Source: Acidimicrobiia bacterium (GTDB lineage Bacteria > Actinomycetota > Acidimicrobiia > Acidimicrobiales > Bin134). From it: 64,000 nucleotides of DNA. Made by a program: the position numbers and the translations under genes. The stretch lies in NCBI GenBank assembly GCA_009842675.1, contig VYEX01000008.1:1-64000 (forward strand), written 5' to 3'. This document shows positions 1 through 12,757 of the stretch, piece by piece (the first letter of the stretch is position 1; every line of letters begins with the position of its first letter). Below the pieces are notes generated by a model. The model did no database searches. It saw only the letters and a program-made list of their open reading frames with translations, and was not told the origin of the DNA.

Positions 1-785
1 CGCCCGCGCCGGCAGCTCCGCCCGCGCCGACAGCCCCGCCCGCGCCGGCGACACCTTCTCGCACCGTCGGTCGGGACACGGTGGTGCCGCTCAACAACAT
101 CCGCCGCATCACCGGCGATCACATGGTGAGGTCGAAGCAGGTATCGCCCCATGTGCTGACCGCGGTGGAGGTGGACTTCGAGGGGGTGGAGCGGGTGCGA
201 CAGGCTCACCGGGCGGCGTTCAAGGCAGAGCACGGCTTCAGCCTCACCTATCTGCCCTTCATTGCCCGGGCGGTGTGTGATGCCCTTCATTCCTATCCCC
301 ACATCAATGCCTCGGTGGGAGATGGCGAGCTGGTCGTACACAACTATGTGAACCTGGCCATCGCCGTCGACCTCGACTTCCAGGGACTGCTGGCTCCGGT
401 GGTTGTCGACGCCGACGGCAAGCGGTTGGTGGCCATAGCCGAGGAGGTGGCCGATCTCTCGCGGCGGGCTCGGGCCAAAAAGCTCAACGCCGATGAGATC
501 TCCGGCGGCACGTTTACCATCACCAATCCCGGCCAGTGGGGCACGATGATGCAGTTCCCCATCATCAACCAGCCCCAGGTGGCCATCTTGTCCACCGACG
601 GAATCCGCCGCCGACCGGTGGTGGTGACCGCAGAGGACGGGAGCGAGGCCATCGCCATCCACTCGGTGGGGGTTCTGGCCTTGGCCTGGGACCATCGGGC
701 GTTCGACGGGGCCTACGTGGCCGCCTTCTTGGACCACGTCCGCTCGATCATCGAAACCCGCGACTGGCATACCGAGATGACGTGA
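1..785 (+). CDS. 2-oxoacid dehydrogenase E2 acyltransferase, 3' part (5' end outside window)
   Basis: The reading frame is open from base 3 and runs through an Ala/Pro-rich linker (roughly the first 18 codons) into a complete C-terminal acyltransferase core. The core shows the DHRAFDG active-site motif (His and Asp of HxxxDG) near the end, and the GTFTITNPG and QVAILSTDG blocks typical of E2 proteins of pyruvate or branched-chain 2-oxoacid dehydrogenase complexes. Lipoyl and E1/E3-binding domains would lie upstream of the window. E2 transfers acyl groups from a lipoyl arm to CoA in the cytoplasm. It is followed after 35 bp by the lipoate synthesis gene, so substrate protein and modifying enzyme are probably co-transcribed. 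Which 2-oxoacid is used cannot be told from this fragment. Confidence 0.9.
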   Translation, partial: PAPAAPPAPTAPPAPATPSRTVGRDTVVPLNNIRRITGDHMVRSKQVSPHVLTAVEVDFEGVERVRQAHRAAFKAEHGFSLTYLPFIARAVCDALHSYPHINASVGDGELVVHNYVNLAIAVDLDFQGLLAPVVVDADGKRLVAIAEEVADLSRRARAKKLNADEISGGTFTITNPGQWGTMMQFPIINQPQVAILSTDGIRRRPVVVTAEDGSEAIAIHSVGVLALAWDHRAFDGAYVAAFLDHVRSIIETRDWHTEMT

Positions 786-820: not shown

Positions 821-2473
821 ATGAACCCGCTCCGCATCAGGTGGCTGGGGCGGGTGTCCTACCGTGACGCTCACGCCTGCCAGCAGGCCATGTTCGACCG
901 GCGAGGCGACCACTTGCTGCTGCTGGAGCATCCCCATGTGTTCACCCTGGGCCTGCGGAGCGACGAGGCCAACATCCTGGTAGACCCCGCCGAGGTGGGG
1001 GCCGAGGTGGCATACACCGACCGGGGCGGCGATGTCACCTATCACGGCCCCGGCCAGCTCGTCGGCTATCCGGTGATGACCGTCCCCGGGAAGCGGGGCG
1101 GGGGTATGGCCGACACGGTGGCCTACGTGCGCTCAGTGGAGCAACTGGTGATCGACGCCCTGGGCGATTTGGGTTTGGCCGGTTGCGGCCGCCTTGACGA
1201 CTACCCCGGCGTGTGGGTTGACCCCGACAGCGATAACCCCCGCAAGATCGCGGCTATCGGCGTGCGCCTCAGCCGTACCCGCTCCATGCACGGCTTCGCG
1301 CTCAACGTGGACTGTGACTTGGACTGGTTCAATCGCATCGTGCCCTGCGGCATTCCCGACAAGGCGGTCACCTCCCTGGCCGCCGAGGGGCGGCGGACAA
1401 CCATGCGGGAAGTGGTAGATGCGGTGGCAGCCCGGGCTGCCGACCGCTGGGGAGCCGGGGGAGTGGACCGGGCCGACGTGGCCTGGCGGCAGCGGCCCGA
1501 GGACTTGAGCCCGTTCAGCCGGGGAATGGGACCGGGCGAGCTGCCGGGCAAGGCCGTGCGACTGCGCAGCAGGATGAACGAAGTTGGCCTCGACGGCGGC
1601 TTGGACATTACCGAGCGCAAGCCGCCCTGGATGCGGGTGGCCCTTAGGACCGGCCCCGAGTTCCGGCAGCTGCGGTCGGTGCTGCACAGCCGGAATCTGG
1701 TGACAGTGTGTGAGGAGGCCGGGTGTCCCAACATCTATGAGTGCTGGAACGAGGGCACGGCCACGTTCATGATCAACGGAGAGCGCTGCACACGGGCCTG
1801 CGGGTTCTGCCTGGTGGACACCCAGCGTCCCGAGCCCCCCGACCCTATGGAGCCCGAGCGGGTGGCCGACGCGGTGGAGGCCATGGGCTTGGACTATGCG
1901 GTGGTGACCGCGGTGGCCCGCGACGACCTGCCCGACGGGGGTGCCGCTGGATTTGCCGCCGTCACCGCCGCCATCCGCCGTCGCACTCCCGGGGTGCGGG
2001 TGGAGGTGCTCATTCCGGATTGCAAGGGCGACCCCGAGGCGCTGGTCGTGGTCTTTGATGCCCGACCCGATGTGTTGAACCACAACATCGAGACGGTGGC
2101 CCGGCTCCAGCGGGTCGTGCGGCCCTCAGCGGGATATGCCCGCAGCCTGGCCGTGCTGGCCCGGGCCAAAGCGGCGGGGCTCACCACCAAGTCGTCGATC
2201 ATCGTCGGCTTGGGCGAGACCGACGATGAGGTGGTCCAGACCATGGCTGATCTGGCCGCAGTGGGCACCGACATCGTGACCGTCGGCCAATATCTGCGGC
2301 CCACTACCCATCATCTTCCGATTGCCCGGTGGGTGCCGCCGGACCAATTCGAGCGATTTCGGGAGGTCGGCCTATCGCTGGGCATCTCCCACGTGGAGGC
2401 CAGCCCCCTAACCCGCAGCTCCCACCACGCCCAACACGCCCACGCCCAGGCTCTGGCCCTTACGACCCACTAG
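821..2473 (+). CDS. lipB-lipA: LipB-LipA fusion: octanoyltransferase plus lipoyl synthase
   Basis: One 550-residue frame holds both lipoate assembly enzymes. Residues 1 to about 235 are LipB: DRGGDVTYHGPGQL substrate motif, Lys142 (RKIAAIG) and Cys176 (VPCGIPDK), the acyl-transfer dyad, at the same numbers I recall for Mycobacterium LipB. Residues about 250-550 are LipA: auxiliary cluster CX4CX5C (Cys297, 302, 308), radical-SAM CX3CX2C (Cys323, 327, 330) and a C-terminal RSS motif. LipB moves octanoyl from acyl carrier protein to lipoyl domains and LipA inserts two sulfurs. I chose ATG 821 because LipB homology starts there; the frame is open further upstream but that part is a shadow of the E2 gene. 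An internal ATG at 1574 (residue 252), preceded by AGCAGG, could also yield free LipA. The genes are usually separate. Confidence 0.93.
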   Translation: MNPLRIRWLGRVSYRDAHACQQAMFDRRGDHLLLLEHPHVFTLGLRSDEANILVDPAEVGAEVAYTDRGGDVTYHGPGQLVGYPVMTVPGKRGGGMADTVAYVRSVEQLVIDALGDLGLAGCGRLDDYPGVWVDPDSDNPRKIAAIGVRLSRTRSMHGFALNVDCDLDWFNRIVPCGIPDKAVTSLAAEGRRTTMREVVDAVAARAADRWGAGGVDRADVAWRQRPEDLSPFSRGMGPGELPGKAVRLRSRMNEVGLDGGLDITERKPPWMRVALRTGPEFRQLRSVLHSRNLVTVCEEAGCPNIYECWNEGTATFMINGERCTRACGFCLVDTQRPEPPDPMEPERVADAVEAMGLDYAVVTAVARDDLPDGGAAGFAAVTAAIRRRTPGVRVEVLIPDCKGDPEALVVVFDARPDVLNHNIETVARLQRVVRPSAGYARSLAVLARAKAAGLTTKSSIIVGLGETDDEVVQTMADLAAVGTDIVTVGQYLRPTTHHLPIARWVPPDQFERFREVGLSLGISHVEASPLTRSSHHAQHAHAQALALTTH

Positions 2474-3606
2474 CCCTCAGGCCCATCTGGGCCTGGCTTC
2501 TTGAGCCCAATGCGCACGTAGGCCTCCTCGGGGATGGCCTCCACCGACTTGTAGATGGTCCAAGTGCACTTCGCCGGCTCAGGCCCGGAAGTCTCATCGG
2601 GGTATAGGGGGGAGTCCACCACTCGAATGGGGTGTCCCCACTGGCGGGCGGGCCACAGCTCGAGCGTGTAGCAGCAGTGGGCGCAGTAGTAGCACACGCC
2701 CTTCTCGTTCCAGGCCCAGTCGTGCTCAGCAGTGGTGACCCCGAAGTTGTAGGGCGGCTCGGAACGGGAGCCAGTGCCCTCCACGAGATCGCCGCGTTGG
2801 CCTCGGTTGCCCGACCCACAGGGGTCGAACGAGATCACAAACTTGTCTTCGTCTTCGGTTAGGTCCATGCCCCCGGCCCGATCGGGGCCAACCAGATGGG
2901 CCCGCATGGCCTCGAACGCCAGGTAGAGGTTGCGGTACAGGGTGTCCTCGTAAGACTTCTCGCGCAGGTCGAATGGCAAATAGCGCTCTTCCAGGTAGGG
3001 CGCGAGCACATGGGCGTAGGCGTCACCCACCGCGGCCTCACCCAACCGGTCGGCCACAAAGCTCAGCATCCCCGACTGGAAGTCGGCGCCTCGGTCGTGG
3101 AGCTGGCGCCAGCGCTCCCGTAGCTGATCGAGCTGGGAATGGGCTTCGGCGGCTTCGATCTCATAGGCCCGCAAGCGGTTGCCCAGCTCTCCTGCCCGTT
3201 GGGCGAGCGCCATCCACCGCGGCTCGGGCTCGAACGGTCCGCCGTCGGGGAAGGCCAGGAGTTCCCGGAGCCGGGCGACTTCGGCGTCGAGGTCGTCTTG
3301 GGTCACCCCCTGAGCGGTCAGGAAGGAACCCCATCCCTGGCCCCAAACCTGGTAGATCACATGGACGACTTTGGCTTCCTCCATCCAGTAGTCCACCAAT
3401 TGGGCGGCGGTCTCCCAGTCGCCGTTGTCGATGGCCTCGGCAATCTTGACCGTGGTGGACACCGCCTGGTCCGACCAATCCCCGGTGCGGACTCGCTTGT
3501 TGATGGCATCAGACCAGGTCAAGTAGGTGGGTGGGGCAGATGCCGTCCCCGAGATGCTGCGCGCTGGACGGCTGTCGTCCGCTTGGCTCGTTGATTGGTC
3601 GCTCAC
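2470..3606 (-). CDS. Unrecognised cysteine-motif protein, copy 1
   Basis: 378 residues starting at GTG 3606, preceded by AAGGGA. I do not recognise a named function. It is clearly homologous along its length to the protein at 19581-20699. Shared features: an N-terminal GDW.(S/T)AA.L.DY helix region, a central helical part with ...(R/K)..W.Q.HDR, then FDPCGSG, then C-x2-C-x2-C (GVCYYCAHC, followed by another Cys here), and a C-terminal KC.W..(Y/F)K...(I/V)PEE(A/Y)Y.R.G..KP block. Conserved cysteines suggest metal or Fe-S binding or thiol chemistry (inference). It has no signal peptide or membrane segment. It is the last gene of a four-gene minus-strand operon that starts at the operator at 6366, so it is probably induced with the sugar catabolic genes. 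Confidence 0.8.
   Translation of the reverse strand: MSDQSTSQADDSRPARSISGTASAPPTYLTWSDAINKRVRTGDWSDQAVSTTVKIAEAIDNGDWETAAQLVDYWMEEAKVVHVIYQVWGQGWGSFLTAQGVTQDDLDAEVARLRELLAFPDGGPFEPEPRWMALAQRAGELGNRLRAYEIEAAEAHSQLDQLRERWRQLHDRGADFQSGMLSFVADRLGEAAVGDAYAHVLAPYLEERYLPFDLREKSYEDTLYRNLYLAFEAMRAHLVGPDRAGGMDLTEDEDKFVISFDPCGSGNRGQRGDLVEGTGSRSEPPYNFGVTTAEHDWAWNEKGVCYYCAHCCYTLELWPARQWGHPIRVVDSPLYPDETSGPEPAKCTWTIYKSVEAIPEEAYVRIGLKKPGPDGPEG
2478..2495. terminator. Possible bidirectional terminator hairpin
   Basis: A perfect inverted repeat (CAGGCCCA, 2-base centre, TGGGCCTG) lies just after the lipBA stop and inside the last codons of the convergent gene on the minus strand. The two genes overlap at their ends, so a shared hairpin would make sense. 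There is no clear T tract, so this is only a candidate. Confidence 0.35.
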
Positions 3607-9653: not shown

Positions 9654-9892
9654 CAATCGGAGACGATGATGACGATGGGGTCGCCGATGTCCACCTCATC
9701 GTCGACGGCCACGAGGTGCTCGACGATGGTTCCCGACACCGGGCTGGGGACGTCGGAGTCAACCTTGTCGGTCTCAACCCGCAAGAGGTCGTCTCCTGCG
9801 GCCACGGAATCGCCCACTTCCGCCAGCCATTCGAGCACTACTACCAGCTCGGTGGTGTCTCCCAGTTTGGGGAGTTTGATGGTGTAGCGCAC
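9653..9892 (-). CDS. Free-standing lipoyl-domain protein
   Basis: 79 residues, GTG 9892 preceded by GAGGAG that overlaps the end of the E1 alpha gene. The whole protein is a single biotinyl/lipoyl hammerhead domain. The ETDKVDSD loop carries the lipoylation lysine Lys43 (a biotinyl domain would usually read AMKM). Such a domain normally forms the N terminus of an E2 acyltransferase, but here there is no E1/E3-binding or catalytic domain. It is the last gene of a minus-strand operon with E1 alpha and E1 beta. It could accept the two-electron oxidised acyl unit from E1 as a diffusible carrier, as the GcvH protein does for glycine decarboxylase (analogy, inference). Lipoylation would need LipB/LipA, such as the fusion at 821-2473. 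Confidence 0.85.
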   Translation of the reverse strand: MRYTIKLPKLGDTTELVVVLEWLAEVGDSVAAGDDLLRVETDKVDSDVPSPVSGTIVEHLVAVDDEVDIGDPIVIIVSD

Positions 9893-9903
9893 GGGATTGC
9901 TCC

Positions 9904-10887
9904 TCAGGGCGCCAGCACATGGGCGAACATGGCGTCCACCGGAGTGGGAGCACTGTCCAGCACGAGTTCCACCGCGGCGTCGATGCGGGCATTGACGGTG
10001 GCCTGGACCTCGTCAATGCCGTTCTCGCCCAGTACCCCTTCGTCTAACAGCTGGCGACCGAAGTTGACGATGGGATCCTTCTCATACCAGCTTTCGAACT
10101 CCCCGTCTGGGCGGTAGGGGGCAGTGTCGGCCCGGGAGTGCCCGGCGTACCGGTACGTCTTCAGCTCCAAGAGCGTGGGTCCGCCACCGCTGCGGGCGTG
10201 ATCCAATGCGCTGGACACGGCCTCGGCCACCGCATCGGGATCTTGGCCGTCCACGATGGTGCCGCCGATGGCATAGGACTCTGCCCGGCAGGCGATGTCC
10301 TCCACCGGGGTGGTCAGGTCGATGCGGCTGTACTCGCCGTACTGGTTGTTCTCGCAGACGAACACCACGGGGAGCTTCCAGATGGCGGCCAGGTTGAGAG
10401 CCTCGTGAAACGCGCCAATGTTGGTCGACCCGTCGCCGAAGACGGCGATGGCGGCATCGTCGGTTCCCCGCACCTGAGCGGTAAGTGCCGCTCCAGCCGC
10501 CACCGGGATTCCCGCACCGACAATAGCGAACGTGGGCATCAGGCCGATTTCCGGGTCGCAAAGATGCATGGAGCCGCCAATGCCGCCGATGGACCCCGCT
10601 TCCCGCCCCAGAATCTCCCCGAGCAGTTGGACCGGGGTCAGCCCCAGGGCCAAGGCCACACCATGGCCCCGGTAGGTGCAGGTCACCTGGTCGGTAACCC
10701 GGGCGGCAGCCGCCACTCCCACCGCCACTGCCTCTTGGCCCAGGCACAGGTGGGTGGTTCCGTGGACCAGGCCCTCGTCGAACAGGTCTTGCACCTTGTT
10801 CTCCAATGCCCGAATCTCCACCATCCGCTCGTATCGGACCTGACGGTCCTGTTGCAGTGCTTCTCGGCGTTCCAACGGTGTGTTCAT
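9904..10887 (-). CDS. TPP-dependent 2-oxoacid (or acetoin-type) dehydrogenase E1 alpha
   Basis: 327 residues. It has the thiamine-diphosphate motif beginning GDGST near residue 150 and ending with CENNQY, the TYRGHG block, and the RYAGHSRAD loop that is phosphorylated in mitochondrial relatives. Length fits the pyruvate/acetoin E1 alpha family. Its ATG overlaps the E1 beta stop by four bases (ATGA), so the two are translationally coupled. It pairs with E1 beta to decarboxylate or cleave a 2-oxo substrate onto a lipoyl arm. The partner E2 is missing here; only a free lipoyl domain follows. Being under the LacI-type operator at 13927, it is likely a catabolic enzyme rather than housekeeping pyruvate dehydrogenase. 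Confidence 0.92.
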   Translation of the reverse strand: MNTPLERREALQQDRQVRYERMVEIRALENKVQDLFDEGLVHGTTHLCLGQEAVAVGVAAAARVTDQVTCTYRGHGVALALGLTPVQLLGEILGREAGSIGGIGGSMHLCDPEIGLMPTFAIVGAGIPVAAGAALTAQVRGTDDAAIAVFGDGSTNIGAFHEALNLAAIWKLPVVFVCENNQYGEYSRIDLTTPVEDIACRAESYAIGGTIVDGQDPDAVAEAVSSALDHARSGGGPTLLELKTYRYAGHSRADTAPYRPDGEFESWYEKDPIVNFGRQLLDEGVLGENGIDEVQATVNARIDAAVELVLDSAPTPVDAMFAHVLAP

Positions 10888-11900
10888 GGCGTGTTCTCCT
10901 CACGTTGCCACCACGGGGGCGGCACCCGTCCGGTATCCAGCAACTCGGTGATCTGCTCTCCCACATAAGCCGAAGACGGCATGTAGCGCTCCTCCAGTTC
11001 CTTGCCAAACGGAACGGGCACGTCGGGAGCGGTGATCCGCAAGGGTGGGGCCTTGAGCTCACCGAACAGGTCTGCGGCCACAGCGGCCACCACGTCGGCG
11101 CCCCAGCCGCCAGAAAGCGGGTTCTCCTCCACGGTGACCAGCCGACCGGTGCGAGCCACCGATGCGTACACCAAGTCTTGATCCCAGGGTTGCAGCGATT
11201 GCAGGTCGATCACATCGGCCGACCATGAGCCATCGGCGGCGGCTTCGGTCGCGGTGCCGACAGTCGATCCCAGCGCCACCACGGTGGCGTCGTCACCAGA
11301 AGCGGCCTGTCGAGCTTGACCCAAGGCGATGATGCCCGCTTCTCCAGTAGTGACCTCTTCGCGTTGGGCGTACAGCCGCCGGGGCTCGAGAACCACCACC
11401 GGGTTGTCGTCTCGGATAGCGGCTCGCATCAAGCCATAAGCCGTCGCCGGCCCGGATGCCACCGCCAACTTGAGGCCGGGAGTGCCAACCACCCAGCTTT
11501 CCAAGGTCTGGGAGTGCTGGGTGCCGAACCCCAGTCCCGCGCCGACCGAGGCCCGCACGGTGAGCGGCACGGTGACCTGCCCCCCCGACAGATAGTGGAA
11601 CTTGGCACCCTCGGTGGAGAGCTGGTCGAGGGCCACGCCGAGGAACTCCACGAACATGATCTCCACCACTGGTCGCAGTCCGGTGGCCGCGGCGCCCACC
11701 GCCGCGCCCAAGAAACCCATCTCGGAGATCGGCGTATCCCGCACCCGCAGCGGGCCGAACTCCTCCAACAGCCCGGCCGACGTCTTGAACGGCCCCTCGG
11801 CAACGGCGACATCTTCTCCCAACACGATCACATCGGGATTAGCGCGCATCTCATCGGCGATGGCCGCCGAGATGGCCTGGTTCATTCTCATTCTGGGCAT
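10884..11900 (-). CDS. TPP-dependent dehydrogenase E1 beta
   Basis: 338 residues from ATG 11900; the frame extends upstream but homology begins at MPRMRMNQAI. Motifs: LGEDVAVAEG, DTPISEMGFLGAAVGAA, a transketolase-like pyrimidine domain, and a C-terminal transketolase domain with TVEENPLSGGWGA. It forms the other half of the alpha2beta2 E1 active site. The start overlaps the end of the epimerase gene upstream by 13 bp and its stop overlaps the E1 alpha start, giving a tight operon (oxidoreductase, epimerase, E1 beta, E1 alpha, lipoyl protein). Confidence 0.92.
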   Translation of the reverse strand: MPRMRMNQAISAAIADEMRANPDVIVLGEDVAVAEGPFKTSAGLLEEFGPLRVRDTPISEMGFLGAAVGAAATGLRPVVEIMFVEFLGVALDQLSTEGAKFHYLSGGQVTVPLTVRASVGAGLGFGTQHSQTLESWVVGTPGLKLAVASGPATAYGLMRAAIRDDNPVVVLEPRRLYAQREEVTTGEAGIIALGQARQAASGDDATVVALGSTVGTATEAAADGSWSADVIDLQSLQPWDQDLVYASVARTGRLVTVEENPLSGGWGADVVAAVAADLFGELKAPPLRITAPDVPVPFGKELEERYMPSSAYVGEQITELLDTGRVPPPWWQREENTP

Positions 11901-12757
11901 GAGTACCTCTCGGTCGCGAACTTGGTTAGCCAATCCACAGACTGGGCCACGATCTCGTGCTCTGACCAGCCAGGGGCCATGTCGGCAACTTCGACGCACG
12001 CCAAGCCGTCAAATCCGGCCTCGTTCATCACCGCCAAGGCCTGGTCTATGTCCAAATCACCGTGTCCGAGAGGCACCCCGGGCCAGTGGCCGCCGGGGTC
12101 GCCGGGGGTGGACGACCCGAGATCGAGGTCTTTGGCGTGGATCATCTTGGTGTGAGGAGCCAAAGCCGCCGCCGCAGTCAAGAGATCATCACCGATTCGA
12201 ACCACATTGGCGCTGTCGAACACCACGCCCAGCTGGGGACTGGCCACCTGCTCGATGAGTTCGCCAACCGACTCGGTGGTGAGATCGCAATGGGTCTCGA
12301 TGGCGACGTCCAGACCGCACTGGTCGGCCTTCTCGGTGATCTGGGCTACTTGGGGGACGACTCGCCGGAGCACTTCGGTTTCGTCCTCGTGGCCGAAATG
12401 GCGGGTGGTGCCGATCACGATGCGGAGCAGGTTGCACCCCAGACCGGCAGCCTGATCGACCGCGGCGAGGGCATCGGCAAATGCGTCGCGATCAAGCCCC
12501 ATGGCCAGCCCGTCGGGGTGACCCCAAGCCAGTACCCGCTCGAAGCCATGCTGGTCGAGGCGCTGGCGGAGCGACTCCACGTTGGCATCGGCGCCACTGT
12601 CCAAGAAACAGGTCTCCAGCGATACTCCTTCGACTCCGAGCTCCGAACAGCAATTCAAGAAATCGTCGGTGGTCCAGCGCTGTTCGGCGGGGGACTCGCT
12701 GGTCCTCAGCTCGCCGAAAAACCGGTGATACGAGTAGCTGTCGACGCCTATACGCAA
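11888..12757 (-). CDS. Sugar phosphate isomerase/epimerase-family TIM-barrel protein
   Basis: 289 residues if TTG 12757 is the start; no ATG or GTG fits and the frame runs open upstream into the previous gene. It begins LRIGVDSYSYHRFF and shows xylose-isomerase-like barrel motifs: AIETHCDLT (metal Glu), VVFDSANV (Asp), MIHAKDLDL (His) and ACVEVAD (Glu) at expected positions. Members (IolE/IolI/tagatose epimerase types) isomerise sugars or dehydrate inosose-like compounds. With the adjacent Gfo/Idh/MocA dehydrogenase it resembles inositol-type or oxidised-sugar catabolic pairs. The start lies in a 21-bp tandem repeat that carries the ribosome site. Confidence 0.82.
   Translation of the reverse strand: MRIGVDSYSYHRFFGELRTSESPAEQRWTTDDFLNCCSELGVEGVSLETCFLDSGADANVESLRQRLDQHGFERVLAWGHPDGLAMGLDRDAFADALAAVDQAAGLGCNLLRIVIGTTRHFGHEDETEVLRRVVPQVAQITEKADQCGLDVAIETHCDLTTESVGELIEQVASPQLGVVFDSANVVRIGDDLLTAAAALAPHTKMIHAKDLDLGSSTPGDPGGHWPGVPLGHGDLDIDQALAVMNEAGFDGLACVEVADMAPGWSEHEIVAQSVDWLTKFATERYSCPE

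Follow-up and report, generated by a model that had tools for sequence, protein, structure and literature searches.

The window, by which we mean the whole 64,000-nt stretch of DNA analysed, carries at 821-2473 (+) an uninterrupted frame of 550 codons that is closed by a TAG stop, included in these coordinates. This single coding sequence, lipBA, encodes a fusion of LipB with LipA, as Pfam placed an LplA/LipB catalytic domain at residues 14-204 and a radical SAM domain at residues 321-477, and NCBIfam models assigned residues 2-208 to LipB and the part from about residue 263 onward to LipA. No second match to the LipB-LipA protein was detected in the host genome at E 0.001. The proposal of an earlier, sequence-only reading that LipB and LipA are fused in one 550-residue polypeptide was thus borne out, since the frame is open, both halves passed family cut-offs, and relatives agree, as described below.

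The LipB (octanoyltransferase) domain comprises residues 1-207 (821-1441, +; Pfam PF21948) and exceeded the cut-offs of PRK14345 (188 bits, cut-off 155) and TIGR00214 (131.9 bits, cut-off 83.55), with matches to the other LipB models PRK14341, PRK14343, and PRK14342 falling below their own cut-offs. By fold, this half aligned with Mycobacterium tuberculosis LipB (1w66) over 199 residues (Z 29.2, rmsd 1.6). Lys142 (1244-1246, +) and Cys176 (1346-1348, +) form the Lys/Cys dyad of LipB, align with a Lys and a Cys of 1w66 and are invariant in 80 aligned fusions; we take Lys142/Cys176 to be the numbering of the dyad in the M. tuberculosis enzyme as well, a dyad reportedly described by Ma et al. in 2006. 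The fusion is the sole LplA/LipB domain over the Pfam cut-off in the host genome. Another LplA/LipB-like protein, 242 residues long, narrowly missed this cut-off of 27 bits (26.3 and 26.7), so a protein of the ligase type may be present alongside the fusion and share the attachment step.

The LipA (lipoyl synthase) domain comprises residues 264-550 (1610-2470, +) and likewise exceeded its family cut-offs (TIGR00510, 349.1 bits, cut-off 310.25; PRK05481, 390.2 bits, cut-off 203), while the match to the N-terminal Pfam model LIAS_N fell slightly below the cut-off (25.5 versus 27). Two cysteine motifs are invariant in the 80 fusions and align with M. tuberculosis LipA (5exi), namely CX4CX5C (Cys297, Cys302, and Cys308; 1709-1744, +), presumably the ligands of the auxiliary cluster, and CX3CX2C (Cys323, Cys327, and Cys330; 1787-1810, +), which we assume to bind the radical-SAM cluster. 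A C-terminal Arg-Ser-Ser at residues 532-534 (2414-2422, +), conserved in at least 90% of the 80 fusions, is what we take to be the RSS motif of LipA. The further claim that active sites are complete in both halves therefore held at the level of residues, with the predicted catalytic residues present in LipB and LipA alike. By fold, the LipA half aligned with M. tuberculosis 5exk over 295 residues (Z 41.6, rmsd 1.8), with fusion residues 245-548 corresponding to chain residues 11-306, such that the alignment begins inside the linker. The M. tuberculosis proteins (LipB 1w66, LipA 5exi/5exk) are the closest solved relatives by sequence and fold but are two separate proteins. The LipA half also shares its fold with human LIAS in complex with H protein (8ugo, 8v0j). 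This complex is a solved structure that pairs a lipoyl synthase with a lipoyl carrier, and PMC12246082 names the octanoyltransferase LIPT2 as a separate protein.

The linker spans residues 208-263 (1442-1609, +). Among 15 congeners its omega was 0.18, compared to 0.11 for LipB and 0.13 for LipA, indicating purifying selection within the genus and that the linker is read as protein. Its length, counted in alignment columns, ranges from 5 to 104 residues across the 80 aligned fusions, and a long linker segment is absent from several congeners (e.g. L040, L042, and L069); this spread is unlike a tightly built channel. An AlphaFold2 model of the window fusion, built with 80 fused sequences, had a mean pLDDT of 89.3 and a pTM of 0.91, with residues 233-244 below a pLDDT of 50 and a helix at 246-254 preceding LipA, while a model of a short-linker congener (51 sequences) had a pLDDT of 91.5 and a pTM of 0.92. 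Since the two domains comprise about 210 and 285 residues, we take pTM values of 0.91 and 0.92 to mean that their relative placement is confidently predicted in these models. Because the 5exk alignment starts at residue 245, the linker helix is probably the counterpart of the N-terminal segment of free LipA, and the linker seems to carry this old N-terminal segment. Separately, a group of loci from genomes of 0.9-1.1 Mb (f49: L144-L146, L148-L150, and L152) has retained the fusion, joined by a group-specific and largely conserved linker that reads mostly FTPRQLK...IDxxVxxGVF.

The sequence-only reading had suggested searching for the same fusion in relatives. Among 197 Acidimicrobiia genomes, drawn evenly with a requested completeness of at least 90%, 189 had a match and 8 did not, and the joined frame was found in 188 of the 189. 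Among the 150 matches listed, 149 were full length, of which 147 were free of stops; the two others (G178, locus L083, which has 16 N, and G187, locus L086) contain a TGA, yet no stop lies between their LipB and LipA matches. In the other 40 matched genomes, 20 and 14 loci were read as fused, some being cut by contig ends or N, and five genomes (G067, G097, G121, G144, and G148) were counted as fused from a stop-free junction in the match rows alone. The remaining genome, G202, has a locus (L159, G202:C113) in which a PurD-like N-terminus, identified by eye, runs straight into the lipBA linker and LipA, and this locus is probably a chimeric contig. At the level of loci, 38 of the 47 in the genome_contigs set were fused, 7 were not fused, and 2 were without one half; a set of 68 fused loci represented 55 distinct core sequences, all of which show the joined frame and 15 of which are long-linker congeners, window included. 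The class was recognised as Acidimicrobiia from the names of related records and from the lineage that NCBI gives for Candidatus Poriferisocius. The LipB-LipA fusion is near-universal in the sampled Acidimicrobiia.

The exceptions within the class were few. A search with a LipA model, which detected LipA in 12 of 14 known genomes used as a positive control, yielded nothing over the cut-off in the eight class genomes without a match, G109 giving one weak match below it, and likewise no LipA over the family cut-off in G031 and G057 (70% and 63% complete). In a Sva0996 bin134 genome (G014; locus L066, identical to L078), the linker carries an insertion of 40 nt, within L066 1330-1620, that breaks the lipBA frame and leaves both halves intact, so this locus represents either a natural fission of the fusion or an assembly error. 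The G010 locus, 2,359 nt long, has no LipB and apparently runs up to a contig edge next to LipA. One further genome, G105, has a fused copy and, on a contig of 5 kb (L158, G105:C83), a second lipB-lipA pair whose genes are separate. Upstream of this pair lies a frame that looks E2-like by eye, and the pair reflects either contamination or transfer.

Outside the class, the arrangement differs. A phylum-wide sample of 246 genomes, 25 in Acidimicrobiia and 221 outside, gave matches in 182 of the 221, and no stop-free full-length match outside the class was present among the 150 matches listed; the three full-length matches outside the class among those listed (G410, G340, and G385) contain two stops each. 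Of 20 stretches read from 19 genomes of other Actinomycetota, 12 carry separate lipB and lipA genes in this order, the two matches lying no more than 304 nt apart in 11 of the 12 and ~1.2 kb apart in L129; the remaining eight comprise one with lipB in another arrangement, six with LipA alone, and one with neither. The frames surrounding LipA in eight loci, including the long frames of L120, L124, L125, and L126, were read for fusions outside the class, and by eye the residues upstream of LipA in these loci resemble a chance high-GC reading and not LipB. The separate LipB (EC 2.3.1.181) and LipA (EC 2.8.1.8) of other Actinomycetota thus belong to the same families and lie in the same gene order as in lipBA, and 9 of 17 split loci from other classes have an E2 gene no more than 1,500 nt upstream. 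However, a stop, a frame change or, in L129, ~1.2 kb separates their halves, in contrast with the single polypeptide of lipBA.

Since lipB and lipA are separate neighbours outside the class, the simplest view of the fusion is that an old lipB-lipA pair lost the boundary between its two genes. This loss would have occurred on the line leading to Acidimicrobiia, and the fusion would have been kept since. Trees of 54 fused and 19 split rows, a subset of the loci, required 2 changes in both the LipA-only and the LipB-only tree, and a single clade of fusions was not rejected (p-AU 0.886 and 0.446); in the joint tree, the fused clade forms one side of a branch with support 0. A single origin is therefore not contradicted and appears compatible with the sequence trees. 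A profile comparison of the linkers of the two fused groups, made to look for shared ancestry, gave a probability of 20% with the conserved ends and 1% without them. Independent LipB-LipA fusions may exist in other phyla, the all-phyla scan reaching close relatives only.

A fusion of comparable design is defined by the family model NF053790 (LplA_LipA_fuse, bifunctional lipoate--protein ligase/lipoyl synthase), in which, judging by its name and model length, a lipoate-attaching enzyme likewise precedes LipA. By name, however, the enzyme in front is a ligase, in contrast with the LipB of the window fusion, which did not reach the 800-bit cut-off of this model (352 bits, model positions 330-605 only). 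A literature search, judged by titles and the openings of abstracts and with most subscription journals outside its coverage, found no description of a LipB-LipA fusion, and none is mentioned in the accessible parts of PMC10332631, PMC3917532, PMC12246082, and PMC4398509.

The gene upstream of lipBA encodes the E2 acyltransferase of a 2-oxoacid dehydrogenase, of which the window holds the C-terminal part (3-785, +; Pfam PF00198, 219.6 bits), cut by the contig start; it ends 35 nt ahead of lipBA. Of the 93 distinct fused loci for which 500 nt or more of upstream sequence exists, 82 have E2 as the immediate upstream neighbour, at a median distance of 20.5 nt, and in 11 it was not found. The E2 encoded upstream is likely the substrate protein of LipBA. 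Another contig of the same genome, C21, breaks off within an E2-like gene that includes a lipoyl domain and comes after a dihydrolipoamide-dehydrogenase-like gene (both genes, though not the domain, named by eye). The contigs appear to break inside E2 in a Pro/Ala-rich stretch (window 1-785 and L110 1-521), with the lipoyl part ending C21 and the catalytic part starting C77. Given the end of C21 and the start of the window, the order lpd-E2-lipBA is likely, spanning an unjoined contig break.

The host genome encodes four lipoyl/biotinyl-type domains and a GcvH, and further acceptors are likely a second E2-like protein on C11 (by eye), the lone lipoyl domain in the window, and the GcvH on C47. 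The lone domain (9665-9883, -; PF00364, 68.4 bits) lies in a 119-residue frame adjoined by E1-alpha-like (9907-10887, -; PF00676) and E1-beta-like (10887-11999, -; PF02779/PF02780) genes. Since a 119-residue frame has no room for an E2 catalytic domain, these genes possibly encode a split 2-oxoacid dehydrogenase. On the other side of lipBA, a gene for a 378-residue protein (2470-3606, -) overlaps the lipBA end by 4 nt at its 3' end; this protein has no Pfam match and contains a Cys/His-rich stretch, GVCYYCAHCCYTLELW.

Taken together, we consider it likely that lipBA encodes one bifunctional lipoate-assembly protein, which would have arisen by boundary loss and whose domains may dock for hand-over of the intermediate. 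The protein would be made as one uncut polypeptide with both halves active. Its N-terminal LipB would move the octanoyl group from octanoyl-ACP to an acceptor lipoyl domain, above all that of the upstream E2 and of other lipoyl proteins too, and its C-terminal LipA would then insert two sulfurs at C6 and C8. With LipB and LipA docked, the octanoylated lipoyl domain could pass between the sites with little release. To our knowledge, the route by which octanoylated lipoyl domains travel from LipB to LipA has not been settled. LipA is a slow, sacrificial enzyme. Channelling between the sites is plausible from the models, given confident two-domain predictions in two congeners and the adjoining E2 gene, and the wide occurrence of the joined protein in Acidimicrobiia suggests that the two lipoate steps work side by side.

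This last step, and not the existence of a single bifunctional protein, is what a simple tether would contest: the fusion would only fix equal amounts and common synthesis of the two enzymes, and the octanoylated lipoyl domain would be released and rebind. We judge the chances of this alternative to be evenly balanced. The wide variation in linker length and the loss of the long segment in several congeners are in its favor, and neighbouring operon genes commonly fuse. However, retention of the fusion in 188 of 189 matched class genomes and confident placement of the domains even with a short linker suggest more than a tether. The stronger proposal that a docked two-site lipoate assembler is a trait defining the class, with the lipoyl domain of the neighbouring E2 passed from LipB to LipA without full release, is put forward as a tentative one that we hold to be somewhat unlikely.

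It is improbable, in our estimate, that the locus yields two products, namely the full-length fusion and a free LipA made from an internal start, be it the one at 1574 or a different in-frame codon within the junction. The sequence-only reading had suggested that an ATG at 1574 preceded by AGCAGG (1568-1576, +) may give free LipA. Both elements are present, and the in-frame ATG is kept in all 15 long-linker congeners, but their use as a start was not supported. AGCAGG (1568-1573) touches the ATG with zero spacing and occurs in 4 of the 15 congeners, window included. Across the 80 fusions, this codon encodes Met in 9, which all belong to the genus of the window, Leu in 46, and Thr, Ser, or Phe in 3, and it is missing in 22; no Met at all occurs in 58 of the 80 linkers. 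Synonymous change was not clearly lowered either, since third-base differences at four-fold sites, 0.28 overall, were 0.39 over the 12 columns of codons 226-261 and 0.26 over the 3 columns of codons 244-255, and pS was 0.43 in codons 245-262 versus 0.30 in LipB and 0.35 in LipA. The start at 1574 was rejected on these three grounds.

Duplex energies, computed without the 3 bases adjoining each start, were -1.8 kcal/mol at 1574 and ranged from -0.6 to -6.5 when the homologous ATG was scored in the 15 congeners; they do not decide the matter for 1574, since the accepted start at 821 is about as weak (-2.4). Two other codons outscored the accepted start, such that some internal initiation is possible: GTG 1463 (-7.0), with GGGGAG 8 nt upstream, and GTG 1478 (-9.3), a conserved Val that is GTG in 15 of 15 congeners; some GTG or TTG is also present in most junctions scanned. 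Nevertheless, the codon at 1463 is not conserved, being GTG in 7 of 15 congeners, and GGGGAG lies 14 nt from 1478, although this second codon may still serve as a start. Finally, it is exceedingly improbable that an artefact of assembly or sequencing conceals a stop separating two genes. The gene does lie 820 nt from the start of its contig, the draft assembly comprises 81 contigs, and the frame is broken in one congener, but 188 of 189 matched class genomes agree and the single-contig assemblies G007, G015, and G027 show the fusion; the missed stop between the halves that the earlier reading had raised against itself is thus countered by the joined frame in relatives.

The probably bifunctional LipBA fusion, kept in nearly all sampled genomes of the class, provides a single protein in which the hand-over between the two lipoate steps could be measured directly, and its predicted structure offers a likely geometry for the contact between LipB and LipA. 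The fusion is also a candidate genomic marker for Acidimicrobiia. If the docked assembler is true, LipB and LipA would as a rule work in partnership, and a contact that is only transient in other bacteria would be frozen by the fusion.
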